The notes beneath the pieces were generated by a model. It did no database searches, was not told the DNA's origin, and worked only from the letters and a program-made list of their open reading frames with translations. A DNA stretch of 64,000 bases from Thioclava sediminum (GTDB lineage: Bacteria > Pseudomonadota > Alphaproteobacteria > Rhodobacterales > Rhodobacteraceae), in NCBI RefSeq assembly GCF_002020355.1, contig NZ_MPZV01000001.1, positions 1,426,001 through 1,490,000 of the forward strand. The letters are read 5' to 3'. The first letter of the stretch is position 1; the number at the start of each line of letters is the position of its first letter. Position numbers and translations under genes: made by a program. Positions 27,323 through 61,181 of the stretch are shown here, piece by piece.

Positions 27323-28134
27323 TGGCGCGGGCGAGGTGGTTTCGGGCCTTGGCGGCGCTTGCGATTGCGAGCCTCGCCGCGACAGGCCCCGCACGGGCCG
27401 AAGGCTGGGCAGGGTTCTACACCTCCAGCCGCCCCAGCGTGCCGGAGGCAACCACGCCACTTCCCGCCACCCTCGGCAATGACCAGCAATGCCTGCGCCA
27501 GATTTTCGCGGCGCAGGACCGCTACGGCATCCCCGATAACCTGCTGCTCGCAATCGGACTGCAGGAGGCAGGGTTTCGCAACGAAGGCCGCCTGACGGTC
27601 TGGCCGTGGAGCGTCAACGCCGCTGGCGAAGGGCGCGTGTTCGACAGCCGCGAGGCGGCGATGGCGTGGGTGCACCAGAAACAGGCCGCGGGCGTCTCCT
27701 CAATCGATACGGGCTGCATGCAGGTGAACCGCAAATGGCACCCGGACGCCTTCGACTCGCTGGCCCAGTCCTTCGATCCGGCGGCGAATGTGGATTATGC
27801 CGCGCGGTTTCTGGTCGATCTGCACCGGCGGACGGGGGATTGGTGGCTCGCGGCGGGCTCGTATCACTCCTTCACGCCAGAGGCGCGCCAAACCTATCTG
27901 ACCGCGCTCAAGCGCAATCTCGCGGTGGCGCAGAAACGCGGCGATTATTTCGTCCAGCTCGCAGGCGCCGCCGCCGTGGACACGCCCGCGCCGAGCCCCT
28001 CGCCGCGCCCTGCGCGCCGGAAACTGCCCGTCTTCTGGTCGGCCGACCTGACGGCGGATCAGGACATGCGGCTGTCGATCTATTCGACCAATGACCTGCA
28101 ACCCGTGCTTCCCAATTTCACGCGAACGAATTGA
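27322..28134 (+). CDS. Lytic transglycosylase, flagellum-associated
   Basis: 270-residue secreted protein with a signal peptide (ALAALAIASLAATGPARA) and a transglycosylase-type domain: GIPDNLLLAIGLQEAGF contains the presumed catalytic glutamate, followed by SSIDTGCMQVNRKWHPD and the NVDYAARFLVDLHRRTGDWW segment, matching SLT family motifs. Predicted role: local opening of peptidoglycan for the growing rod, as for SltF in Rhodobacter. The FlgJ-like rod-binding protein in this cluster (42892) has no muramidase domain, so this enzyme probably supplies the activity. Located between fliQ and flhA. Confidence 0.88.
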   Translation: MARARWFRALAALAIASLAATGPARAEGWAGFYTSSRPSVPEATTPLPATLGNDQQCLRQIFAAQDRYGIPDNLLLAIGLQEAGFRNEGRLTVWPWSVNAAGEGRVFDSREAAMAWVHQKQAAGVSSIDTGCMQVNRKWHPDAFDSLAQSFDPAANVDYAARFLVDLHRRTGDWWLAAGSYHSFTPEARQTYLTALKRNLAVAQKRGDYFVQLAGAAAVDTPAPSPSPRPARRKLPVFWSADLTADQDMRLSIYSTNDLQPVLPNFTRTN

Positions 28135-28141
28135 GCAACGG

Positions 28142-30232
28142 ATGAGCCAAAATCAGACCAGTTTCGGCAAGAACCTCGTAGGGCTTGGTATCAAGAACCG
28201 CGATATCGGCTTCGCGATTGGCGTGACGCTGATCCTCGGGATGCTGTTCGTCCCGCTGCCGCCAATTATCCTCGATTTCGGCCTCGCGATCTCGCTGTCG
28301 CTGTCGGTGCTGATCCTGATGGTGGCGCTGTGGATCCCGAAGCCGCTGGAGTTCAACTCCTTCCCGACGTTGCTGCTCGTGGTGACGATGCTGCGGCTGT
28401 CGCTCAACATCTCCTCGACGCGGCTTATTCTCAGCCAGGGCCATACTGGGCCCGGCGCGGCGGGCGGCGTCATCGAAGGGTTCTCGCGCTTCATCGTGGG
28501 CGGGGATTTCGTGATCGGGATCGTGATCTTCGCGATCCTCGTGGTGATCAACTTCGTCGTCATCACCAAGGGTTCGACCCGGATCGCCGAGGTCTCCGCG
28601 CGGTTCTCGCTCGATGCGATGCCGGGCAAGCAGATGGCAATCGACGCCGATCTCGGTGCCGGGCTGATCGACGAGGTTGAAGCCAAGCGCCGCCGCAAGG
28701 AGCTGGAGGACGAGAGCGGCTTCTTCGGCGCGATGGACGGTGCGTCGAAATTCGTGCGCGGCGATGCGGTAGCGGGGATCATCATCACGCTGATCAATGT
28801 CGTGGGCGGGATTCTGATCGGCGTCGTCCAGCACGGGCTGAGCGTCTCTCAGGCGGCGGGCAATTACACCGTTCTGACGATCGGCGACGGCCTCGTGACA
28901 CAGATCCCGGCGCTGGTGGTCTCGCTGGCGGCAGGCCTGATCGTCACGAAAGGCGGCACGGAAGGCGCAGCGAACGAAGCGGTGCTGGGGCAGCTGTCGA
29001 ACTTCCCCAAGGCGCTCTACATGGCGGCGGTGCTGCTGTTCGGGATCGGCCTGCTGCCCGGCTTCCCGATCGTGGTGTTTTTCGCGCTGGCCGGGCTGCT
29101 CGCCGGGCTGGGCTATGTGATGCAGGAGCAGGCTGCGCTGCGCGCGAGCGACGAGGCGGCAGCGGAGGCCCGCGCGGCCCAGATGGAAGAGACATCGGCC
29201 GAGACGACGCAGCAGCAACTCAAGCTCGACGAGCTGCGCCTCAGCCTCGGCGCGGGTCTGGTACCGCTGATTTCGAGCATGGATGCCGCCCTGCCCGGCA
29301 AGGTCAAAAGCCTGCGCAATCTCTTCATGAAGGATTACGGCTTCGTCCTGCCATCGGTGCGCATCAAGGACGACCCGATGCTGCCGACGAACAGCTATTC
29401 GATCCTCGTGCAGGGCGTCGAGGCGGCGAAAGGCGAGCTGCGCCCCAATCTGGTGATGGTGATCGACCCGTCCGGCGATCAGGTGAAGCTGCCCGGCGAA
29501 CGGATCAAGGAGCCCACCTTTGGCCTCAGCGCGGTCTGGATCGACCCGGCACGCGCGTCCGAGGCCGAACAGCAGGGTCATACGGTCGTCGACCCCGAGA
29601 GCGTGATCACCACCCACCTCACCGAGATCATCAAGGAGCATATGTCCGAACTGCTCACCTATGGCGCGGTGAAAAAGCTCTTGGCCGAACTGGACCGCGA
29701 CTACCAGAAACTTGCGAGCGATATTTCCAACTCCGCGCCGGAGATTCTGCTGCAACACGTGCTGCAATCGCTGTTGGCCGAGCGCATTTCGATCCGCAAT
29801 CTGCCGCTGATCATCGAGGCGGTGGCCGAGGCTGCGCCGTCTAGCACCAACCCCGCCGTCATCACCGAGCGGGTCCGCGCCCGCCTTGCGAACCAGATTT
29901 GCCGCGCGCTGGCGGATGGTTCGGGCTTCGTGCCGGTGCTGACCATGTCGGGGGCTTGGGAGCATGAATTCGGCGAGGCGGTGAAGATCAACGGCAAGGA
30001 CCGGACCTTCCTGATGTCGCCGCAGCGCGTGCAGGAATTCGTGCTGGAAGCGCGACAGGAAATCCAGCGCCACGCGGCGCGCGACGAATGGCCCGCGCTG
30101 ATGGTCGCGCCGGAAGTGCGTGGCTATGTCCGCTCGATGCTCGAACGCGTGAGCCCGATGACGCAGGTAATCTCGCACAACGAGGTGCACCGGAAGGCCG
30201 CGATGAAGACGGTCGGGACGATCGGGGCCTGA
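28142..30232 (+). CDS. flhA: Flagellar export gate protein FlhA
   Basis: 696 residues from the ATG at 28142. Eight predicted spans occupy the first 330 or so residues, with the family signatures LSLNISSTRLIL and FVVITKGSTRIAEVSARFSLDAMPGKQM, followed by the large cytoplasmic export-platform domain. An upstream frame start at 28091 lies inside the transglycosylase gene and is rejected. Confidence 0.97.
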   Translation: MSQNQTSFGKNLVGLGIKNRDIGFAIGVTLILGMLFVPLPPIILDFGLAISLSLSVLILMVALWIPKPLEFNSFPTLLLVVTMLRLSLNISSTRLILSQGHTGPGAAGGVIEGFSRFIVGGDFVIGIVIFAILVVINFVVITKGSTRIAEVSARFSLDAMPGKQMAIDADLGAGLIDEVEAKRRRKELEDESGFFGAMDGASKFVRGDAVAGIIITLINVVGGILIGVVQHGLSVSQAAGNYTVLTIGDGLVTQIPALVVSLAAGLIVTKGGTEGAANEAVLGQLSNFPKALYMAAVLLFGIGLLPGFPIVVFFALAGLLAGLGYVMQEQAALRASDEAAAEARAAQMEETSAETTQQQLKLDELRLSLGAGLVPLISSMDAALPGKVKSLRNLFMKDYGFVLPSVRIKDDPMLPTNSYSILVQGVEAAKGELRPNLVMVIDPSGDQVKLPGERIKEPTFGLSAVWIDPARASEAEQQGHTVVDPESVITTHLTEIIKEHMSELLTYGAVKKLLAELDRDYQKLASDISNSAPEILLQHVLQSLLAERISIRNLPLIIEAVAEAAPSSTNPAVITERVRARLANQICRALADGSGFVPVLTMSGAWEHEFGEAVKINGKDRTFLMSPQRVQEFVLEARQEIQRHAARDEWPALMVAPEVRGYVRSMLERVSPMTQVISHNEVHRKAAMKTVGTIGA

Positions 30233-41457: not shown

Positions 41458-42285
41458 TTAGCGGAACAGGCTCAGAAGGTTCTGAGGGCCCTGGTTCGCA
41501 ATCGAGAGCGACTGCGTCGCGAGCTGCTGCTGGACCTGGTAGGACTGCAGGCGAGCCGCCTCCTTCTCCATGTCCGCATCGACCATGTTGCCGACACCGG
41601 TGTCGAGCTTGTCGGTCAGCTTGCCGAGGAAGTCCTGCTGGGATTCCAGCGACTTCTCCGCAACACCGAGCGAGGTCGCGTTGTCGATGGCCGTCGACAG
41701 GGCGCTTTGGGCGCTCGTCAGCGCGCTGGTCAGAACCGCCGCCGAACCACCAGAGATATCGATCCCGCTCAGCGTCGCCTGAAGCGTAGAGAGATCGACC
41801 GCCTGGAAGGTCATCGACGTGGTCGCGAAGGAACCGCTTGCGCGGCTGATCCCGGTGACGACCGTCACGTTGGCCGAACCGTCGACGAGGCTGTCGCCGT
41901 TGAAGGTCGCCTGGCTGATCGTGGTGCCGATCTGATCGACGATGCTGCGCAGTTCCTTCTGGACCGCAGCATGATCAACCGCGTCGCCCTGAGCGAACGA
42001 AACACGTTCGACGAACTGCTGGGCGAGATCCTTCACCGACTCTGCACCAAGACGCGCGGTCGAAACCGAGTTCTTGGTCAGGGTCAGACCTTCGTTGATC
42101 GACTTGTACATGCCGCTGTCGCTGTTCATCGATTCCGAGATCGAGAAATACGCGGCATTGTCTTTCGCCGAGTTGATCTTCTTGCCGGTCGAAATGCGGT
42201 TCTGCGTGTCTTCGAGACCCTTGTTGACCCCACGGAGGGTCGCAAGAGCATTCATCGCGGAGGTATTGGTAAGAATGGACGACAT
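41458..42285 (-). CDS. fliC: Flagellin
   Basis: Filament protein of 275 residues, short because it consists mainly of D0/D1 domains. N-terminal signature SSILTNTSAMNALATLRGVN with TGKKINSAKDNAAYFSISE; C-terminal helix ESQQDFLGKLTDKLDTGVGN and ending LSIANQGPQNLLSLFR. The middle (about 120-190) is Ser/Thr rich, offering possible O-glycosylation sites. It is the only flagellin gene in the window. A perfect CtrA box lies 91-105 bp upstream of the start. Confidence 0.97.
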   Translation of the reverse strand: MSSILTNTSAMNALATLRGVNKGLEDTQNRISTGKKINSAKDNAAYFSISESMNSDSGMYKSINEGLTLTKNSVSTARLGAESVKDLAQQFVERVSFAQGDAVDHAAVQKELRSIVDQIGTTISQATFNGDSLVDGSANVTVVTGISRASGSFATTSMTFQAVDLSTLQATLSGIDISGGSAAVLTSALTSAQSALSTAIDNATSLGVAEKSLESQQDFLGKLTDKLDTGVGNMVDADMEKEAARLQSYQVQQQLATQSLSIANQGPQNLLSLFR

Positions 42286-42375: not shown

Positions 42376-42390
42376 TTAAGCGCAGGTTAA
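42376..42390 (-). promoter_or_regulatory. CtrA box upstream of flagellin
   Basis: TTAA (42376-42379), 7 bases, TTAA (42387-42390): perfect match to the alphaproteobacterial CtrA consensus, located between the flagellin start (42285) and the end of the flgN-like gene (42405). Confidence 0.75.
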
Positions 42391-44366: not shown

Positions 44367-44518
44367 AGTTTCCTCACATCACCAGCACATTCCGCCAAAT
44401 TAAAGCAAAACATAAATAGTGTCCAATATAAATCAGTACTATTCTTGACTAATCCTTTGTGGCAACTTAGCGTGATCTTGCCGCTTGTGCGAGAAACTTG
44501 CCCGGGATGGAGGCCTGC
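44367..44518. promoter_or_regulatory. flgI / FtcR-like regulator divergent region, octamer repeats 11 bp apart
   Basis: On the minus strand AAGGATTAG (44449-44457) and AAGAATAG (44439-44446) are direct repeats 11 bp apart, 73-91 bp before the flgI start and 62-80 bp before the regulator start. Adjacent TTGCCACAAAGGATTAG aligns with the fliF and fliG elements. An 11-bp spacing is what OmpR-family dimers use. Confidence 0.6.
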
Positions 44519-45271
44519 ATGAATATTTACGTCTTTGAGCCTCGCGATGGCCGCGTTCGCGGCCTGCTCAGCGAGCTGGAGAGCGTTGGGCTGCAACCCG
44601 TCCTCGTCCCCGCATCCTTCTTCGCGTCCGATCTCAGCACGCTGAACCAGAAGGGCGTCGACACGCGGGCGATCCTGATCGGCGACTGCCCGGAAGTGAC
44701 CGACTATATCCGGGCCATCCGGAGTTGCGGCTGCCGCAATCCGGTTCTGGTGATGCGCGATTTCAAGAACTCACGCGATGCCTCGGAAGCGCTCGATGCC
44801 GGGGCCGACGACGTCATGGTCAGCCCGATCAAGGGGATCGAGGCACTGTCGCGGATCAACTCGATCATCCGCCGCTCCTATGGCCACGCTGCCGAGAGCA
44901 TCAGTGTCGGCGAGATCACCGCCTTCTTCGACGGGCGCGATCCGCTGGTCTCCGGCGCGCGGCTGAAGCTGTCGAACCGTGAGCACGCGATCTTCCAGCA
45001 CCTGGCGCTTAACGCGAACAAGGTGATTGCGAAAGGCGCGATCTATGACGCGGTCTACGGGATGAGCGACGACCAGCCCTTCGACAAGGTCATCGACGTC
45101 TATATCTGCAAGCTGCGCAAGAAGATCGCCGATGCGGCCGATAGCGGCCACCAATATATCGAGACGGTCTACGGTCGTGGCTACAAGTTCAGCGAGCTGG
45201 AAAGCACGAGAGACGTGAAGCTCGCAGCCTATGAGCAAACCGACGCGCGGGGCACGGTAGCCGCGCGATAA
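44519..45271 (+). CDS. FtcR/Rem-like OmpR-family flagellar regulator
   Basis: 250-residue regulator. The ATG at 44519 has GGAGG 5 nt upstream. N-terminal receiver-like domain (about 1-120) begins MNIYVFEPRDGRVRG. The usual acidic pair after strand 1 reads EPRD, the strand-3 site reads AILIGDCPE, and the conserved lysine near the end is replaced (VMVSPIKG, Ser where Lys-Pro is expected). C-terminal winged helix (about 140-235) with FFDGRDPLVSGARLKLSNRE, YDAVYGMSDDQ and YICKLRKKIADA is close to FtcR of Brucella. FtcR activates fliF there. It is probably the local activator of this cluster; convergent with flgL. Confidence 0.82.
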   Translation: MNIYVFEPRDGRVRGLLSELESVGLQPVLVPASFFASDLSTLNQKGVDTRAILIGDCPEVTDYIRAIRSCGCRNPVLVMRDFKNSRDASEALDAGADDVMVSPIKGIEALSRINSIIRRSYGHAAESISVGEITAFFDGRDPLVSGARLKLSNREHAIFQHLALNANKVIAKGAIYDAVYGMSDDQPFDKVIDVYICKLRKKIADAADSGHQYIETVYGRGYKFSELESTRDVKLAAYEQTDARGTVAAR

Positions 45272-47800: not shown

Positions 47801-49099
47801 TCAGCGTTTGAGACGCGTGGTCTCGTCGAGCATCTCGTCCATCGTGGTGACGATCTTCGCGTTGGTGGAATAAGCGCGCTGGGTGCGGATCAGATCGCTC
47901 AATTCCTGCGCGATATCGACATTCGACCCTTCAAGCGTCCCCGAGGAAATCGTGCCCACCGGGCCCTCGTTCGCCTTGTGGATCGTGAAGTCGCCACTGT
48001 TGCGGGTCAGCCGATAGGCGTCGCCATCGACCTCCTGCATCCCGTTCGGGTTCGCCACATGGGCGAGCGGGATCTTGTAGAGCGCCTGCCGCTGGCCGTT
48101 ATCGAAGATCCCGTACATCGTGCCGGTATCATCGACCTCCATCCGGGTCAGCGCGCCGGCGGACGAGCCGTCGGTGTCGAATTTCTGCGGGGTGAAATCA
48201 CCAGCGAACTGAGTCATCCCGTCGAAGCTGTTCAGCGCACCGAGCCCGACGTCGATCGGCTGGGTCGTGCCACCGTCATTCATCGTCAGGCTCATGACGC
48301 CCGTGGTCGTGTCCATCGAGAAGGCACCGGGTGCCGTGGCGAGATTGGTCACGCCGGAATAGCTGACCGGGGCGCCCGCATTCGGCCCGCTGGCGGCGAA
48401 ATCGACCGTGACCTGACCGTAGGGAACGCCGTCGCCATCGGACACGGTGACGTCCCACTGGTTCTGGGTCGCGGTCGGCTGCCAGGAATATTCGAGCCGC
48501 TTCGCCGCACCGAGCGGCGTGAAATATTGCGAGGACGAGGTGAAGGGCGCGCCCGGCGTCGCGTTTCCGGTTTCCTGCGAGGGCAGATTGCCTTGCACGC
48601 TGACCGTGGTCGTCGCCTTCGCGCTCAGCGTTGCATCGGTCACGTTCACCGTCTTCAGCCCATTGAAGCTGTTGCCGTCGATCGAGCCGAGCGTGCCGTC
48701 GGTATAGGGGTAGCCCGAGAGGAAATAGCCTGCCGAATTGACAAGATCGCCATTCTCGTCGGGCTTGAACGACCCGGCGCGCGTCAGGACGTAATCGGAC
48801 TCGACGCTCGTATTGGCTCTGTCAGACACGACGAAGAACCCGTTCCCGTTCACCGCGAAATCGGTTGCGGAACTGGTGGGGATCACCGCCCCCCCGTTCG
48901 TCACGTCGGAGGACACGACAGCATTGACGCCCGAGGGTGCATCGAGCCCGCCGCTCGGCGTCATGGTCACCATCTGGGCGAAGCTGCGCTTGTAGCCCGT
49001 GGTATTCGCATTCGCGATATTCTCGGAAATTTCGCCAACGGCGACGGAGTTTGCGTTCAGGCCGCTCACGCCGGTCTGCATCGCGCTCGAAATACTCAT
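47801..49099 (-). CDS. flgE: Flagellar hook protein FlgE
   Basis: 432-residue hook protein. SSAMQTGVSGLNANSVAVGE plus ENIANANTTGYKRSFAQM at the N-terminus; SGTLEGSNVDIAQELSDLI and TNAKIVTTMDEML at the C-terminus. GAGG precedes the ATG. A TTAA-N6-TTAA element lies about 62-75 bp upstream. Confidence 0.96.
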   Translation of the reverse strand: MSISSAMQTGVSGLNANSVAVGEISENIANANTTGYKRSFAQMVTMTPSGGLDAPSGVNAVVSSDVTNGGAVIPTSSATDFAVNGNGFFVVSDRANTSVESDYVLTRAGSFKPDENGDLVNSAGYFLSGYPYTDGTLGSIDGNSFNGLKTVNVTDATLSAKATTTVSVQGNLPSQETGNATPGAPFTSSSQYFTPLGAAKRLEYSWQPTATQNQWDVTVSDGDGVPYGQVTVDFAASGPNAGAPVSYSGVTNLATAPGAFSMDTTTGVMSLTMNDGGTTQPIDVGLGALNSFDGMTQFAGDFTPQKFDTDGSSAGALTRMEVDDTGTMYGIFDNGQRQALYKIPLAHVANPNGMQEVDGDAYRLTRNSGDFTIHKANEGPVGTISSGTLEGSNVDIAQELSDLIRTQRAYSTNAKIVTTMDEMLDETTRLKR

Positions 49100-49160
49100 G
49101 GTTTTATCCTCTCATGTCCGAAGAGAAGGGGGTCCTATCTAGGAGATATGCGACTGATGT

Positions 49161-49174
49161 TTAACTGGAGTTAA
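49161..49174 (-). promoter_or_regulatory. Near-CtrA element upstream of flgE
   Basis: TTAA (49161-49164), six bases, TTAA (49171-49174). It has the CtrA half-sites with one base less spacing than the perfect boxes in this window; in N7 register the second half-site reads TAAA. Confidence 0.4.
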
Positions 49175-54621: not shown

Positions 54622-55296
54622 TCAGCCCGACACCGCAACGATGAGCGAGCTGGGCACTTCCTCGCCGTTGCGCAGAACCAACGACTGCCCCTGCGACGAG
54701 AACCGCACCTGCTCGACCTGCGTGCTGGGATAGGTGTCATAGGAAACCGCATTGCCATTGGTATCCTGCGCGTCGATCTCGACCCGGAACGTGTCATCGG
54801 GCACCGGCAGCCCCGCGGAATCGCGCCCATCCCAATTCAGCGCGATCTTCTCGCCCGAACGTCCGGGCAGGCCTGTGATCCGGCGCAGTTCGGTCCCGTC
54901 CTCTGTCTTGATGATCGCGGTCACCTTGTCGGCGGGTGCGGCAAGCTCGTAGCTGGTGCTGGCCTGACCGTCGCGCAGCTCGATCCGGTCGGAGGCGAGC
55001 GACACCGTCTTGCCCATCAGGGCCACATCCGACATCCCGCCGATCGCGCTCAACTTGGCGTCGATGGTCTTGAGGTTGGTATTGGTCTGCACTGATTGCT
55101 CGACCTGACTGAGCTGCGCCAGCTGCGAGACGAATTGCGTCGAGTCCATCGGCTTCAGCGGATCCTGATTTTTGATCTGCGCCGTCAGCAGCTGGAGGAA
55201 GCTGTTGTAATCCGCCGAGAGCTTCGACTGCGCGGTGTTCGTCGCGGCATCGGTCGTGGCCGCGGTCGGCGTGGTGCTTGTCGGGGAAATGCTCAT
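54622..55296 (-). CDS. flgD: Flagellar hook cap/scaffold protein FlgD
   Basis: 224 residues from the ATG at 55296. N-terminal domain with SADYNSFLQLLTAQIKNQDP and MDSTQFVSQLAQLSQVEQS is diagnostic; C-terminal Ig/tudor-like part with FRVEIDAQDTNGNAV. A longer frame to 55428 overlaps fliK and is rejected. Last gene of the sigma-sulfotransferase-fliK-flgD operon. Confidence 0.95.
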   Translation of the reverse strand: MSISPTSTTPTAATTDAATNTAQSKLSADYNSFLQLLTAQIKNQDPLKPMDSTQFVSQLAQLSQVEQSVQTNTNLKTIDAKLSAIGGMSDVALMGKTVSLASDRIELRDGQASTSYELAAPADKVTAIIKTEDGTELRRITGLPGRSGEKIALNWDGRDSAGLPVPDDTFRVEIDAQDTNGNAVSYDTYPSTQVEQVRFSSQGQSLVLRNGEEVPSSLIVAVSG

Positions 55297-55306
55297 CTGT
55301 AGCTCC

Positions 55307-56677
55307 TCAGGTCCTGATATCCAGTTGTCCGTCGTCGATGGTGGGCTGCCAATCGGCGCCCAGCACGGGGACCTCTTCGTCAATGCTCGCGCCTTGGCCG
55401 GAGGAGCGTTCTTCTTCGCCTTCGTCATGACCGCCGAATTGCTCGAAATCGAGCGTGCCGCTATCCATCTGCAAGCCCTGCCCCGCCAGGATCGCCGCGA
55501 GCGTCTCGCGATCCCCGCGCAATGCGCTCAGCACCGCCGGACTTTCGGCCCGAACGACCACGTTGACCTGACCGCGCTTGTCGCGCTCCACGTCGATCTC
55601 GATATCGCCCAGACCGCGCGGGGTCAGGGCCACGCGGGTGCGTCCCTCCTGCAGATCGGCGCGGCGGAGCTGCGTCGCGACAAAGGCCGCAAAGCGCGGC
55701 GAGGGCTGGGCCGTCTGCCCCGGTTGCGCCGCAGCCTCGCTGCGGGCTGCGTGACTTGCGTCATGCTGCGTGAGCCGTGCCACGGCCGCATCGGGCAGCG
55801 CCCCGGCGCGGGCGGCCTCGGCGAATGGCTGTGTCGGTCTGGGGTCGGCTTTGCTCGGCGCGGCGGGCAGCAGTGCGGCCTGCGCCTCGGCCTTGCCGGT
55901 CTTCCCCGCGCCTTTCGCGGCCGCTTCCAGAACGGCGCGCACGCGCGGGTCCATGTCGTTCTGCGGGACCTCCGGCGCAAGTGGCGCGGGCACTGCCCCG
56001 GCCAGCCCCTGCGGAACGGATGTGATGATCTGCGACTGCGTCTGCGGTGCCTCAGGCTTCGGCTGTTTCGTCAGAGATGACTGGTCGCCAGCGGAGGGCG
56101 CGGGCATGAGACCGGCGACCGATTGGGTCCGCGCGCCGCCCTTTTGCGGCAATGCAGCCGCAGGTGGCTTCGCTTGCAGACCGAGCGAGACCAGAAGGCT
56201 CGCAAAGACCTCGTCGATCGTGTCGCTTTGGTCGTGCGCATGATCCGAAGCGGGCTTTGCCTCCGTACCGCCAGTTTGCAGCGGCATCCCTTTTAGCGCT
56301 TGGGCGAGAGCTTCCTGCAATTTCGTGCCATGCGCGGCGTCGAATTCGGCGAGCACTGTCGCGAGCGACGTGCCCAGCTCTTTCAGCACCGCCCCGATCG
56401 GCTTGCCCTGCGCCAATTCGGCCAGCGCACCGTCCCGAACCTTCTGCAGCTTCCCGGCCAGTTCGGCCTGAAGCGCGGGATTCTCCGCGAGGATCGCCGC
56501 TGTCGCACCCTTGGGCGAGGCGGCCGCAGGCGATGCCCCCGCCTTCGCGGCACTGCCCGCATCCGGTTGCGCGCCCTGCAAAAGCGATCCGAAGCCGGTC
56601 GCCTCCGATGACGACTTCCGCCCGGCCCCTGCGCCAGAGGCCGTCGTCTTCAGCAACGTCGCAGCTATCGCGTCCAT
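55307..56677 (-). CDS. fliK: Hook-length control protein FliK
   Basis: 456 residues, low-complexity Ala/Pro/Gln-rich N-terminal two thirds and a conserved C-terminal Flg_hook domain (FVATQLRRADLQEGRTRVAL, PRGLGDIEIDVE, VVVRAESPAVLSALRGDRET). Molecular ruler and export switch. Ten bp before flgD. Confidence 0.92.
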   Translation of the reverse strand: MDAIAATLLKTTASGAGAGRKSSSEATGFGSLLQGAQPDAGSAAKAGASPAAASPKGATAAILAENPALQAELAGKLQKVRDGALAELAQGKPIGAVLKELGTSLATVLAEFDAAHGTKLQEALAQALKGMPLQTGGTEAKPASDHAHDQSDTIDEVFASLLVSLGLQAKPPAAALPQKGGARTQSVAGLMPAPSAGDQSSLTKQPKPEAPQTQSQIITSVPQGLAGAVPAPLAPEVPQNDMDPRVRAVLEAAAKGAGKTGKAEAQAALLPAAPSKADPRPTQPFAEAARAGALPDAAVARLTQHDASHAARSEAAAQPGQTAQPSPRFAAFVATQLRRADLQEGRTRVALTPRGLGDIEIDVERDKRGQVNVVVRAESPAVLSALRGDRETLAAILAGQGLQMDSGTLDFEQFGGHDEGEEERSSGQGASIDEEVPVLGADWQPTIDDGQLDIRT

Positions 56678-56690
56678 CTCATCGTCCTCT

Positions 56691-57455
56691 TCACACTAAA
56701 CCCAAGCGCTTGCTCCGGCGCCCCGACGCCGCCTGCCACTCCATGAAGGGCGCGAACCAGTCGCGGTTCTTTTCGTAGCCAAGCTGCTCGAGCAGATCGA
56801 ACAGCACCGGGAAGCGCGAGAATTGATCGCAGATGCGCGCCCGATGTTCTTCGTCGCGCCACTTCGCGCGGGCCTTCTCGACCGGGCGGATGCCGTTGAG
56901 CGGCCCTTTCAAATCCTCCGGGATCTCGGCCGCACCGAAATCGGAGAAGTGCCCCTCGAACTTCAGATCGAGCGCATCGCGCAACTTCTCCTGAATCCTG
57001 TCGGGATCATCGGCAAGGTCTTCGTATTTCAGAAGGAAGACGCCTTGCGGGAAAATGCCGGATTTCAGCACGATCGCGATCGCCTCGTGGATCTGCAGCA
57101 GCCCCGGCATGACCGGCGCGGGCGCATCCGCGCCGCCGATGAAATACATCGCATCTGCCGAGATGAAGTAATCGTCCGGCACCGCCGAATGACGGCTCAC
57201 GAGGATGTCGCGCGGATCGCGCAGAGGCACGATCAGATCGATCCGCTTGTTGCGGACATTGGCCCGCGCGATATTCGCGATCTGGAAGATATCCAGCGGC
57301 CGCTTGCTGACCCAGTCGCCCGGTTGCCCGATCGTGGACAGTGCGCTGGTCTCGCGCGGCGGGATCTCGAACCCTTTGAGGGTCTCACGCAGCATATTGT
57401 AGAACAGTGTCGTGCCCGCGCGCCCATGTCCTGCGATCATCAGATGACGTGCCAT
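56691..57455 (-). CDS. PAPS-dependent sulfotransferase family protein
   Basis: 254 residues. The 5'-phosphosulfate binding loop is visible at about 9-16 (GHGRAGTTLF), and the 3'-phosphate binding motif as PLRDPRDILVSRHS at about 78-90. The LLKYEDLADDPDRIQEKL segment follows, all standard for sulfotransferases. Substrate unknown. It lies between the sigma gene (10 bp) and fliK (13 bp) on the same strand, so it is expressed as a flagellar gene. Sulfation of flagellin or its glycan is a reasonable inference; no other sulfur-donor genes are nearby. Confidence 0.8.
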   Translation of the reverse strand: MARHLMIAGHGRAGTTLFYNMLRETLKGFEIPPRETSALSTIGQPGDWVSKRPLDIFQIANIARANVRNKRIDLIVPLRDPRDILVSRHSAVPDDYFISADAMYFIGGADAPAPVMPGLLQIHEAIAIVLKSGIFPQGVFLLKYEDLADDPDRIQEKLRDALDLKFEGHFSDFGAAEIPEDLKGPLNGIRPVEKARAKWRDEEHRARICDQFSRFPVLFDLLEQLGYEKNRDWFAPFMEWQAASGRRSKRLGLV

Positions 57456-57465
57456 CCCAGCCCTC

Positions 57466-58209
57466 TCAGTTCAGCATCGCAGGGCTGAACCCGCGCTTTT
57501 CAAGGCATCGCTTCAACCGGATGAGCGCGCGCTTTTCGACCTGCCGGGCGCGCTCGCGGCTCATCCCGAGATCGCGGGCCAGATCGTCGAGCGATTCCGG
57601 CGGCGTCTGCAGTTTGCGCCGCAGCACCATCTCGCGATCCGGCGCATCCAGATCGTCCAGCGCATCTTCCAGAACCTCATGCGCCGCGCGCGCCGCGGAT
57701 GCGGCCAGAGTCTGTTCCTCGGGTGTGAGGTCCGGGCTGCGCATCATTTCCATCATCTCGGCATCGCTGTCGTCGAACGACTTGGCATCCAGCGCCACCA
57801 GTCCGGTCAGAAGCTGGCTCGCCTCGGGATTGTCGAGCCGCCCCATCCGCGCATCGAGATAGACCCGCGCCGGCACATCTATCACCGTCTTGATCCGGGC
57901 GAGCGCATTTAGGACGCAGGTCATCACCCACCAGTGCGAATAGGTGGAAAATCGAACATCCTGCGTCAGGTCGAACCTCTCGGCGGCACGCATCAGACCG
58001 ATGATCCCTTCCGCCACGAGGTCTTCGAGCTCGACCGGATTGGTCGCCCAGCGACGCGCCTGCGCATAGGCCTGACGGACATGCGAGCGCAGGAGAATTT
58101 CGAGCGAGTCCCGATCCCCATATTCCTGCCAGCGCGAGATGGCCTGCCGTTCTTCTTCAACATTCAGAAATGGCGCATCAAGTGCAGCACGGAAGCTCAA
58201 TGCAAACAT
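57466..58209 (-). CDS. RpoH-like sigma factor of the flagellar cluster
   Basis: 247-residue sigma-70 family protein. Region 2: LLRSHVRQAYAQARRW, ELEDLVAEGIIGLMRAAERF, and VRFSTYSHWWVMTCVLNAL, closest to the RpoH pattern (SFAVHWI replaced by STYSHWW). Region 4: DREMVLRRKLQTPPESLDDLA and GMSRERARQVEKRALIRLKRCL. The canonical RpoH box between them is replaced (RVYLDARMGRLDN). It is shorter than heat-shock RpoH. Heads the operon with sulfotransferase, fliK and flgD, preceded by AAGGATAG and two perfect CtrA boxes. The window has no fliA. I infer that it serves flagellar promoters. Confidence 0.85.
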   Translation of the reverse strand: MFALSFRAALDAPFLNVEEERQAISRWQEYGDRDSLEILLRSHVRQAYAQARRWATNPVELEDLVAEGIIGLMRAAERFDLTQDVRFSTYSHWWVMTCVLNALARIKTVIDVPARVYLDARMGRLDNPEASQLLTGLVALDAKSFDDSDAEMMEMMRSPDLTPEEQTLAASAARAAHEVLEDALDDLDAPDREMVLRRKLQTPPESLDDLARDLGMSRERARQVEKRALIRLKRCLEKRGFSPAMLN

Positions 58210-58219
58210 TACTCCGCCT

Positions 58220-58237
58220 CTATCCGCTCTATCCTTG
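58220..58237 (-). promoter_or_regulatory. Octamer repeat just upstream of the sigma gene
   Basis: On the minus strand CAAGGATAGA (58228-58237) followed by GCGGATAG (58220-58227). Only 19-28 bp before the ATG, so it could be a core promoter part or an operator. Confidence 0.5.
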
Positions 58238-58283
58238 AAGAACAGAAGACCACGGGGGCATGCTTGGAAAAAGCTTTACTTGA

Positions 58284-58298
58284 TTAAAGGCAAGTTAA
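58284..58298 (-). promoter_or_regulatory. CtrA box 1 upstream of the sigma gene
   Basis: TTAA (58284-58287), seven bases, TTAA (58295-58298): perfect consensus. 75-90 bp before the sigma start. Confidence 0.78.
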
Positions 58299-58314
58299 TC
58301 GGAGGCTTTTCTGG

Positions 58315-58329
58315 TTAACCTCGGATTAA
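58315..58329 (-). promoter_or_regulatory. CtrA box 2 upstream of the sigma gene
   Basis: TTAA (58315-58318), seven bases, TTAA (58326-58329): second perfect consensus, exactly 31 bp from the first, that is about three helical turns on the same DNA face. Confidence 0.78.
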
Positions 58330-58449: not shown

Positions 58450-58857
58450 TCACAGGTGACTGCCCGTCGCGGTCGCGCTGCGATCCCGTGCATCTTCGTG
58501 CAGCGAAAAGCCACCGCGTGCGGGCGACGCCATCGCCGGCAGCCGGAGGTCGATCGCACGGTCCCCAAAACCATGCTTCACCCCTGCGACTTGCGTCGGC
58601 TCGATCACCACGAGGCTTCCATAAGGCACCTCGATTCCAAGCTCTTCCGCAAGAATATCACCAAGCGAGATTCCCGGCAGAAGCTCTTCGGCTTCGGGCA
58701 GCACGAGCAAGCTTGCATCCTTGCGAGTCGAGCGCAGCAAAACACTGTGCGCAGGCAGAAGCGCAGCCGCCACCAAACTTCCCTGAGACCCTGCGCCCGA
58801 TGACGTTTGCGTCACCGAACCTTCCCAAATCTGCGCTAACAAATCGTTATTTTTCAT
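58450..58857 (-). CDS. Hypothetical protein between sigma factor and OmpR-type regulator
   Basis: Not recognised. The ATG at 58857 gives 135 residues starting MKNNDLLAQIWEG, with AGGG 6 nt upstream; another ATG at 58863 is possible. Features: a hydrophobic stretch SLVAAALLPAHSVLLRS, an acidic-hydrophobic repeat (LLVLPEAEELLPGISLGDIL) and a C-terminal tail rich in Arg/Ser. No signal peptide or membrane span; probably a small soluble protein. The neighbourhood (sigma gene downstream, regulator upstream, same strand) suggests a regulatory or secreted role, unproven. Confidence 0.65.
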   Translation of the reverse strand: MKNNDLLAQIWEGSVTQTSSGAGSQGSLVAAALLPAHSVLLRSTRKDASLLVLPEAEELLPGISLGDILAEELGIEVPYGSLVVIEPTQVAGVKHGFGDRAIDLRLPAMASPARGGFSLHEDARDRSATATGSHL

Positions 58858-59205: not shown

Positions 59206-59937
59206 TCAATCTGAAGTTGCAAGGCTGCGCGACTTCCCGACGGGAATCTCGTAGAACGAGTAACCAGCCGAACGCACTGTTTCCACGACATATCTCTCGC
59301 CGAACGCGTCACGCAGCTTCTTGCGAATCTTGGTGATGTGAACGTCGAATTTGCGATCACCATAGACCCACATGCAGTTGTCGATTCGTCGCGACAGCGC
59401 GTCCCGCGTGACGATTCGTCCGCCGCTCCGGATCAGCTCGATCATGATCTCCCCCTCCGTGGGGGTAAGCTGCACCGCCTCGACGGCATCAGGGCCGGTC
59501 AGGCGGTTTTCCTCGTCGATCTTGAGGCGAGCGACCCGCTTTTCTTCGCTCGGGAAGCTGATGGGCAGGCTGTTGCCCGCCCGAAGCCAGAGACGCGCGA
59601 CCAATTCCCTCTGAGAATAAGGCTCTCGGATCACATCATCGGCGCCGGCCAGAATCATCTCGGCAGCAAGCTCTCCGTCCGGAGTGGAGTCGACGAAGAA
59701 GATCAGGCTCTCCTTCGTACTGACGCGCGCAGTTCGGATCAGATCCGCGGCACCCTCTGCGTCGGCAAGGCTGATCAGCAAGATACATGGGGTTCCATGC
59801 AGCAGAATATATTGCTCGGCCTCAATCGCAGTTGCGAAAGGCAAAGGCTCCCAGCCGCAGCATGCGCGAAAGAAGTCGGCCAACTGTCCTTGCTTAGCGC
59901 CTTCTTCCGCTACGATGATGACGTTCTGTCTCCGCAT
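59206..59937 (-). CDS. OmpR-type regulator with atypical receiver
   Basis: 243 residues from the ATG at 59937 (a TTG at 59955 is possible). N-terminal receiver-like domain: strand 1 IIVAEEGAKQ, strand-3 end LLISLADAEG (Ser where the phospho-acceptor Asp should be), and IREPYSQRELVARL where the Lys-Pro pair is usual, so phosphorylation is doubtful. C-terminal winged helix (about 140-235): AVQLTPTEGEIMIELIRSG, RRIDNCMWVYGDRKFDVHI, TKIRKKLRDAFGERYVVETV. DNA binding is therefore expected. No histidine kinase is nearby. Role in flagellar or motility control is inferred from location. Confidence 0.82.
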   Translation of the reverse strand: MRRQNVIIVAEEGAKQGQLADFFRACCGWEPLPFATAIEAEQYILLHGTPCILLISLADAEGAADLIRTARVSTKESLIFFVDSTPDGELAAEMILAGADDVIREPYSQRELVARLWLRAGNSLPISFPSEEKRVARLKIDEENRLTGPDAVEAVQLTPTEGEIMIELIRSGGRIVTRDALSRRIDNCMWVYGDRKFDVHITKIRKKLRDAFGERYVVETVRSAGYSFYEIPVGKSRSLATSD

Positions 59938-60277
59938 GGCGTCCGAGCCAAACAAAAGGCAACTCCCCGTATCCCTCAGCGCTTTCGGGGCGAAACTCAG
60001 GCCTCACGCCCATCCCCGTTGCACCGTCACTTCCGAATAACACCGAGCGTCAGATTGGATGGCAGAGCAAAAATCCGCCGAGCCTGACATCTTTGCATTT
60101 TCGAATTATTATCCCTGCGATATGCGATAATTCACGTGTTTTTGCCAGACAAGTCCAGCCTGTGCCTTGAAATAGGACGCATCGACGGACGTTCAGCGGA
60201 AAAATTGGATTTCTTTGACCTAACTTTAAGAATTTCTTCAATCTTTCCCCTAAGAACAAAACCATGTGAGAGTAGAC
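59938..60277. other. Intergenic region before MucR-type gene
   Basis: A 340-bp gap between divergent regulators. It contains an inverted repeat GAATTAT (60103-60109) and ATAATTC (60127-60133), 17 bases apart, in an AT-rich segment, and a T-rich stretch around 60210-60245. MucR proteins bind AT-rich DNA, so autoregulation is possible. No gene is seen. Confidence 0.4.
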
Positions 60278-60547
60278 ATGACGCAACAATCCACGGCTTG
60301 CGCCGGCGCGCCCGCGACTTCCCGCCCCCCAGCGGTGCCGATTTCGGAGAGTGTCTTTCCTGATCGGCTGATCTGCCTGGAGACGGGCCGCCCGATCAAG
60401 ATGTTGAAGCGTCATCTTAAAAACCTGCTCGGAATGACCTTCGAGGAATATCGCGCCAAATGGGGCCTGCCGCCGGACTATCCCACGAGCGCCCCGGACT
60501 ATCAGCTCGCCAAGCAGCGCTGGCGCACGTGCGACAAACTGCATTGA
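60278..60547 (+). CDS. MucR/Ros-family regulator with degenerate zinc finger
   Basis: 89 residues from the ATG at 60278. The family block LICLETGRPIKMLKRHLKN, LLGMTFEEYRAKWGLPPDYP and TSAPDYQLAKQ is plain. The Ros-type Cys2His2 finger is incomplete: Cys33 and His46 are present but the second Cys is Thr36 and the second His position is Leu51. Zinc-less MucR homologues are known. The N-terminal oligomerisation segment is short. Adjacent to a second, intact MucR-type gene. Confidence 0.85.
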   Translation: MTQQSTACAGAPATSRPPAVPISESVFPDRLICLETGRPIKMLKRHLKNLLGMTFEEYRAKWGLPPDYPTSAPDYQLAKQRWRTCDKLH

Positions 60548-60716: not shown

Positions 60717-61181
60717 ATGTCGAAGGATCGGCCCACGGATGCAGCTAACATTATCGCGACAGTGGCTGCCGCCTATGCCGCCCGCGCGGATGTAACGGCG
60801 GATCAAGTGGTCGACCTCGTGGCGAAGCTCTCCGCGCAGTTTGGCGAGGAGCTGGGCGAGGCAAGCGCCTCTCATGCAGCGGACACAGCCACGGCGAACG
60901 CCAGCCATGCACGCCCGCAACCCGCGCTTCCTATTGAAGACGCGGTGACCGAGGATAAGGTCTTCTGCCTGTGCTGCGGGCGCGGCTTCAAGATGCTCAA
61001 ACGCCATCTCGGCTCGGAACACGGGCTGAGCGAAGACGAATATCGGACCCTGTTCAATCTGCCCGCCGATATGCCGCTTGTCGCGCCCAGCTATTCGGCG
61101 CGCAAAGCGGCCTATGCCAAGAAAGTCGGCTTGGGCAAGCACAGCCGCGACGACCTCGAAGCCTCGCTTCACGACGCCTGA
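60717..61181 (+). CDS. MucR/Ros-family transcriptional regulator
   Basis: 154 residues. Zinc finger C84-x2-C87-x9-H97-x4-H102 within FCLCCGRGFKMLKRHLGSEHG, then LSEDEYRTLFNLPADMPLVAPSY typical of MucR. The N-terminal helices (IIATVAAAYAARADVTADQV, VVDLVAKLSAQFGEEL) match the MucR oligomerisation region. MucR proteins are H-NS-like regulators affecting motility and exopolysaccharide. It is placed just before motB. Confidence 0.9.
   Translation: MSKDRPTDAANIIATVAAAYAARADVTADQVVDLVAKLSAQFGEELGEASASHAADTATANASHARPQPALPIEDAVTEDKVFCLCCGRGFKMLKRHLGSEHGLSEDEYRTLFNLPADMPLVAPSYSARKAAYAKKVGLGKHSRDDLEASLHDA

Follow-up and report, generated by a model that had tools for sequence, protein, structure and literature searches.

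A candidate flagellum-dedicated sigma factor with a conserved putative CtrA box in the fla2-type clusters of Rhodobacterales

What does a sigma factor do at the head of a flagellar operon, and what switches it on? The question is raised by the window, by which we mean the whole stretch of 64,000 nucleotides of Thioclava sediminum DNA analysed here. Its source genome comprises 4.13 Mb in 8 contigs. A flagellar cluster spans approximately positions 19006-62544 of the window and contains, at 57466-58209 on the minus strand, an open reading frame of 247 amino acids that encodes a sigma-70 family protein. ORF calls and Pfam agree with the preliminary description of this DNA in making it the first gene of sigma-sulfotransferase-fliK-flgD. 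All four genes lie on the same strand and are separated by gaps of 10-16 bp. The second gene encodes a sulfotransferase (56691-57455, identified by Pfam), the third the hook-length control protein FliK (55307-56677; Flg_hook, 42.8 bits) and the fourth the hook cap protein FlgD (54622-55290 from its likely start, in an ORF that extends to 55428; Pfam).

According to the accessible part of PMC12826043 (2025), Alphaproteobacteria have no known flagellum-specific sigma factor. The gene as such is already in print, as the available text of PMC12843797 calls it 'rpoD' in the same position of the flagellar cluster in two Marinovum strains and gives no function for it. A search of the open-access PMC literature, subscription papers being outside its scope, found no functional study of it. 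We propose that the protein is an alternative sigma factor of Rhodobacterales which is dedicated to fla2-type flagella, is switched on by CtrA and helps to fire the late fla2 genes, a reading whose chances we judge to be evenly balanced.

The sigma factor and its nearest relatives

The protein matches the Pfam families Sigma70_r2 (55.7 bits) and Sigma70_r4 (31.1 bits), both above cut-off, and its RFSTY-WW motif can be aligned, indicating that the core-binding and melting motifs of the sigma-70 family are present. Its nearest named loci are from Thioclava (99% and 92%). The top curated profiles are of the RpoH, RpoS and RpoD type. The best NCBIfam models are two RpoH models, NF005693 (132 bits, cut-off 315) and TIGR02392 (113.6 bits, cut-off 323.1). 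The broad sigma70-ECF superfamily model scores lower (82.3 bits) and exceeds its cut-off of 42.9, and the FliA_WhiG model TIGR02479 (51.2 bits, cut-off 189.6) also stays below the RpoH models. That RpoH models come first would fit a heat-shock or stress RpoH paralogue which was captured by the operon. We consider this very improbable, since the scores lie far under the RpoH cut-offs, since two further proteins of the genome already belong to the RpoH clade, and since both the phylogeny and the architecture of the protein set it apart.

In a tree of 71 rows, which is midpoint-rooted and has some long branches, 23 fla2 sigmas form one clade (support 100/95), 36 RpoH-like rows another (96/88) and five FliA rows a third (100/99). 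The sigma of the window thus groups with neither RpoH nor FliA, the two families against which the preliminary description had proposed to place it, and its label 'RpoH-type' has to be given up: the protein lies outside the RpoH clade and falls short of the curated RpoH cut-offs. The same description had noted a replaced RpoH box and a reduced length. The RpoH-box segment between regions 2.4 and 3, which we take to be of the QKKLFFNLR type, is absent from the five fla2 sigmas that were aligned and present in both RpoH proteins of the same genome and in E. coli RpoH. Moreover, regions 2.4 and 4 are separated by 55-81 residues in the fla2 sigmas, compared to 109-116 in RpoH, 102 in RpoD and 95-100 in FliA, and the stretch with region 3 falls short of its RpoH counterpart by approximately 30 residues. 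The Pfam family Sigma70_r3, which E. coli FliA matches, is not matched by the sigma, but as it is not matched by one of the RpoH proteins of the same genome either, its absence proves little alone.

The nearest relatives of the fla2 sigma clade are two plasmid-borne sigmas from Rhizobium leguminosarum (L068) and Methylorubrum extorquens (L067), which join it with a support of 99/96. We did not retain them as flagellar relatives, as inspection of their surroundings by eye revealed no flagellar neighbour. Both lie on large plasmids, and their neighbours, again by eye, include genes resembling those for penicillin-binding proteins and, in Rhizobium, also recA-, thymidylate-synthase- and RNase-H-like genes. 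A class-wide search of 385 genomes, with at most seven candidates scored in each, returned 20 matches with E values no higher than 1e-38 outside the source genome. Eighteen of these were placed in the tree, and all 18 group with RpoH. The other two, both from one genome, were left out of the tree; one of them (L091) is the shortest class-wide match and by eye adjoins an ECF-type gene. Finally, a further contig of the source genome (C6, 39.7 kb) carries two divergent sigma-70-like genes (L005 and L008) approximately 4-5 kb apart, which form a long-branched pair of their own in the tree.

The preliminary description had seen no fliA, flgM or RpoN activator in the 44-kb cluster. In the whole genome, the best FliA match reaches 109.3 bits (cut-off 189.6) and no RpoN match was found. 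For FliA this is ordinary, since only 4 of 142 sampled alphaproteobacterial genomes have a FliA that scores over the cut-off.

Distribution of the sigma among fla2-type clusters

The gene blocks of the window match those of the Marinovum algicola pMaD5 cluster (MALG_04521-MALG_04566), mostly in the same order within blocks. The accessible portion of PMC12363192 presents this cluster as the fla2 reference. Since its sigma (MALG_04549) is orthologous to that of the window (44.8% identity) and since both clusters share the order upstream gene-sigma-fliK-flgD, we assign the cluster of the window to the fla2 type. As a marker of cluster type we used FlhA (28091-30232, plus strand), which is 64-75% identical to the FlhA of 21 other genomes in a sample of the family. 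All 16 genomes of the genus Thioclava encode a presumably fla1-type FlhA that is only 39-42% identical to that of the window. Six of the 16 also encode an FlhA which is 94-100% identical to the window's, and the same six hold the sigma.

In the family sample of 394 genomes, for which at most six sigma candidates were scored per genome, fla2-type FlhA is found in 22. The sigma is present in 14 of these 22 and in none of the 372 others. When the eight negatives were searched again with every candidate scored, no sigma was detected; only RpoH- or RpoD-sized proteins with partial matches were recovered, and the 15 of RpoH size all group with RpoH in the tree. The sigma is therefore not part of every fla2 cluster. 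Its tie to flagella, already suspected from the window, is supported by the Thioclava genomes and the family sample, where it occurs only together with fla2-type FlhA.

The order sigma-fliK-flgD is also found on plasmids of Marinovum, Salipiger, Alloyangia, Roseivivax and Sulfitobacter. According to the available text of PMC12363192, the fla2 type has spread by horizontal transfer and is plasmid-borne in 21 of 43 cases.

The eight negatives are of special interest as natural deletions. In six of them the cluster reads upstream gene-fliK-flgD with the sigma gone, and in the remaining two the contig ends. We compared these six sigma-less clusters with 14 sigma-bearing ones; coverage is incomplete in four of the 20, in which fliI to flhB or fliM to flaF lie outside the stretch. 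The sigma-less clusters do not group together in a tree built from seven flagellar proteins; their scatter requires six changes, at least four of them forced by well-supported branches. As the main groups of the sigma tree and of the cluster tree match by eye, repeated loss of the sigma appears likelier than repeated gain. The gene upstream of the sigma (58450-58857, minus strand) is retained in the sigma-less clusters. It encodes 135 amino acids in the window compared to approximately 240 in relatives, and the copy of the window has no Pfam match.

The sigma is not lost alone. An OmpR-type regulator gene between flgL and flgI (44498-45271, plus strand), which we term 'FtcR-like' by position only, is missing from five of the six sigma-less clusters and from none of the 14 sigma-bearing ones, as judged from the cluster regions searched. 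Accordingly, the gap between flgL and flgI measures 64-282 nt in these five clusters and 903-1060 nt in the sigma-bearing ones. Fisher's exact test gives P = 3.9e-4 for this co-absence if the rows are taken as independent, a value that shared ancestry makes rough. RR2, a second winged-helix regulator (59206-59955, minus strand), is unmatched in four of the six sigma-less clusters. The FtcR-like protein of the window has a strong match to a DNA-binding domain and a sub-threshold match to a receiver domain (12.4 bits, cut-off 30.2); the receiver is possibly unphosphorylated. The exception among the sigma-less clusters is that of G153, in which both the FtcR-like gene and, before flgE, an exact CtrA box are retained. 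Its fla2 FlhA (G153:C22:155909-158044) contains an in-frame TGA, and the cluster may therefore be decaying.

CtrA-like boxes and a second motif

Two exact TTAA-N7-TTAA boxes precede the sigma gene on the minus strand, a proximal one at 58284-58298 (-89 from the ATG) and a distal one at 58315-58329 (-120). Their starts are 31 bp apart, precisely as first described. The third exact box of the window is found at -105 of the flagellin gene fliC (box 42376-42390, gene 41458-42285, both on the minus strand), which we regard as a putative target of CtrA and possibly of the sigma. Three exact boxes compare to 0.05 expected, and none of 100 shuffles reached this number.

To measure conservation we used 23 of the 27 sigma loci, leaving out three nearly identical Thioclava rows as well as that of Rhizobium, and defined the box zone as -125 to -60 of the start codon, with expectations taken from simulated sequence. 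With at most one mismatch, a box lies in the zone of 21 of the 23 orthologues (0.49 expected), and an exact box in that of 11 (0.03 expected). The two orthologues without a box are those of Histidinibacterium and Oceanicola granulosus. Since 21 of 23 orthologues keep it, the proximal putative box, which is conserved across genera, is not a chance occurrence as judged by this comparison. The distal box, in contrast, is present 31 bp farther out at all six Thioclava loci, and at none of the sigma loci of other genera among the 27 examined was a second box found at that distance. The sulfotransferase gene is restricted in the same way: a complete copy is found in the window and in four of the five other Thioclava genomes; L016, L017 and the other 19 fla2 clusters yielded no match. 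At one Thioclava locus (L010, genome G004) the sulfotransferase match covers only 51 residues, yet the sigma is 99% identical to that of the window. As distal box and sulfotransferase are seen only in Thioclava, their combination is, by sequence comparison, a local addition to an old arrangement with a single box, and the layout of two boxes on the same helical face is likewise seen in this genus only.

Could the boxes be sites of another regulator, or be kept for other reasons, such as the stop codon of the upstream gene? In several relatives this gene does end near the box. Moreover, a second, presumed fla1 flagellar region of the same genome (C4:280000-335000) has no exact box in 55 kb, so that flagellar genes here do not generally carry the exact box. 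In Thioclava, however, the proximal box persists even though approximately 120 bp lie between the end of the upstream gene and the distal box. The same element precedes fliC and flgE, and the genome encodes a CtrA orthologue (C3:312102; 439 bits, cut-off 350). We thus regard such other causes as scarcely probable. With a TTAA-N7-TTAA near the putative promoter, the sigma operon bears the mark of a CtrA-controlled promoter, and the CtrA control that had been suggested for it is supported in silico by a box kept across genera and by the encoded orthologue. Comparison therefore lends good support to the predicted step from CtrA to the sigma operon.

To see where else such boxes are conserved, we scanned the same zone of 41 cluster genes, tolerating up to one mismatch. 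Four genes have one in at least half of the 14 sigma-bearing clusters: the sigma gene (14/14), flgE (11/14), fliC (10/14) and RR2 (8/14). The hook gene flgE (47801-49099, minus strand), named by its position and its match to annotated fla2 clusters, heads flgE-flgK-flgL and is a putative CtrA target; in the window its box is TTAACTCCAGTTAAA, with one mismatch, at -75 (49160-49174, minus strand). The figure for RR2 is soft, as the placement of this gene outside the window depends on weak matches (39-119 bits), and a part of these may belong to the other OmpR-type gene; with annotated starts it is 5/7, and in the window one-mismatch matches are found only at -285 and -274, outside the zone. Scattered boxes occur before the FtcR-like gene (5/14) and before flaF, fliF, flgI, motA, up and a few others. 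Conserved CtrA-like sites, as putative regulatory marks, are thus characteristic of hook, filament and regulator genes rather than of the basal body.

The late-gene boxes are largely missing from the sigma-less clusters. A TTAAMY element at -70 to -90 of flgE is present in all 14 sigma-bearing clusters and in one of the six sigma-less ones (Fisher P = 3.9e-4, with shared ancestry ignored); a second sigma-less cluster, G192, has TTAAAT at -113. A flgE box with at most one mismatch in the zone is found in 11/14 versus 1/6. For fliC, an exact box is present in 10/14 versus 0/6 (Fisher P = 0.011, with shared ancestry ignored); if one mismatch in the zone is tolerated, the figures become 10/14 versus 2/6. 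The four sigma-bearing clusters without a fliC box even at one mismatch include Marinovum and G103. Repeated loss in common connects the sigma with both the FtcR-like regulator and the putative CtrA control of hook and filament genes.

Joint loss could also have a wider cause. The sigma might serve the early or middle, basal-body class or the other regulators of the cluster, and its co-loss might reflect a wholesale regulatory change, for example where the host has ceased to control motility through CtrA. That the FtcR-like regulator and, in four of six clusters, RR2 are missing as well means that the losses exceed late-gene control, as such a change would predict. We nevertheless hold this explanation to be improbable, considering G276, a sigma-less cluster close to those of the Salipiger and Marinovum type. 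Its basal-body upstream regions still resemble those of its sigma-bearing relatives: the elements upstream of motA, flgF, flgB, fliF and fliL are kept, and the fliC 5' UTR is retained, whereas no CtrA box is left before flgE or fliC. The contrast is weakened by Marinovum and G103, which belong to the same group and have the sigma but no fliC box.

A sequence recognized by the sigma itself would be direct evidence for its role. In the upstream regions of eight sigma-bearing clusters, k-mer and dyad analyses found only two clearly enriched motifs, the CtrA box and YTATNCTTG. The final set consisted of 94 upstream regions, one partner of each shared divergent region having been dropped. YTATNCTTG occurs in eight copies in window positions 18001-63000 (0.6 expected) and precedes many basal-body operons in varying orientation and spacing. 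It is also present in the 5' region of the sigma gene (58229-58237), where several relatives have an inverted repeat, and occurs once in the 55 kb of the presumed fla1 region. We excluded it as the promoter element of the sigma because its orientation and spacing vary and because it persists in the six sigma-less clusters, with 3 to 12 copies per cluster against an expectation of 0 to 1.9; in its strict form, CTATYCTTG, it has 0 to 5 copies there. The motif is possibly bound by MucR2, the MucR-family regulator (60717-61181, plus strand) that was matched in 20 of the 20 clusters compared; a short MucR-like regulator is encoded nearby (60266-60547, plus strand). No third motif at fixed spacing stood out in the 94 regions as a -35/-10 pair for the sigma, and visual inspection of the sequences that follow the CtrA boxes of flgE, fliC and the sigma gene revealed no shared -10 element.

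The CtrA-dependent flagellar promoters of Cereibacter (Rhodobacter) sphaeroides use the housekeeping sigma factor. In the same way, CtrA and the housekeeping sigma could drive flgE and fliC in Thioclava, and the sigma of the operon could be a passenger whose regulon lies elsewhere, for example in stress, surface or envelope genes expressed while the flagellum is built. That no sigma-specific motif was found in the clusters and that fla2 clusters without the sigma exist would fit such a role, as would the five C. sphaeroides flagellar promoters described as CtrA-dependent in the accessible part of PMC6180460. However, the sigma was never found without fla2 FlhA in the sampled genomes, and it travels with the cluster onto plasmids, which would be odd for a regulator of unrelated genes. 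We therefore consider a passenger role unlikely, although of the alternatives it is the one to be taken most seriously.

The proposed circuit and known flagellar systems

In the circuit that we favour, with the sigma dedicated to fla2 flagella, CtrA would bind the conserved TTAA-N7-TTAA approximately 90 bp before the start codon and switch on sigma-fliK-flgD, both the binding and its sign being predicted. CtrA would also act on flgE(-flgK-flgL) and on fliC through the putative boxes that precede them. The sigma, in the least certain step, would direct RNA polymerase, alone or with CtrA, to promoters of the hook and filament stage. It is because of its linkage to fla2 clusters and the joint loss that the sigma probably joins at this late stage. 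The circuit would be a CtrA feed-forward loop in a place where other bacteria use FliA or RpoN.

The fla2 sigma is thus a candidate flagellum-dedicated sigma factor with a defined home, a conserved putative CtrA input and natural deletions. The joint loss predicts a CtrA-to-sigma step that imposes an order on the hook and filament genes of a genome without a FliA over the cut-off or an RpoN match. If this is true, it would account for the way in which a flagellar cluster, when moved horizontally, brings along a regulator which the CtrA of a new host can switch on. A broader claim would be that Alphaproteobacteria do have a flagellum-dedicated sigma, which forms a separate clade with a shortened region 3, acts as feed-forward partner of CtrA on hook and filament genes, moves between chromosomes and plasmids and has repeatedly been discarded together with the FtcR-like regulator and the late-gene CtrA boxes. 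We advance it tentatively, as somewhat more doubtful than the role proposed for the sigma in Rhodobacterales.

The system closest to that of the window is Marinovum pMaD5, in which a CtrA-like box likewise precedes the sigma, at -88. Unlike in the window, this is a single box with one mismatch, and the cluster has no sulfotransferase match. Alphaproteobacterial RpoH (sigma-32) supplies the nearest curated profile, but differs from the fla2 sigma in clade, in its RpoH box and in the spacing given above.

CtrA acts at or near the top of the hierarchy, as proposed here, at the Fla2 promoters of C. sphaeroides, which have TTAA-N7-TTAA sites according to the accessible text of PMC6180460. The 'Fla2' of that species seems to correspond to the fla1 type of PMC12363192 and not to the fla2 type of the window, since the parts of both papers that are available describe a plasmid-borne flagellin gene; one passage of PMC12363192 differs. 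In Caulobacter, CtrA stands at or near the top as well, but control passes to RpoN and FlbD, and RpoN was not found in the Thioclava genome.

RpoE6 of Azospirillum brasilense is another sigma factor encoded in an alphaproteobacterial flagellar cluster, and it regulates a minor flagellin, as far as the accessible text of PMC12826043 goes. It is of the ECF type, has an anti-sigma factor and neighbours FlgK, FlgL, FliD, FliS and FliC2. The fla2 sigma, in contrast, is nearest to RpoH, RpoS and RpoD profiles and lies with fliK-flgD under a putative CtrA box.

Finally, the FliA (sigma-28)/FlgM system resembles the one described here in that an alternative sigma is encoded in a flagellar cluster and possibly serves late genes. 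The available text of PMC13386836 mentions a 'flagellar-specific sigma28' on flagellar plasmids of S. pontiacus, which is possibly the fla2 sigma. FliA itself belongs to a different clade, and E. coli FliA has the region 3 match that the fla2 sigma lacks. The fla2 sigma would thus be an alternative sigma factor tied to flagella whose clade and whose putative input, CtrA, both differ from those of FliA.
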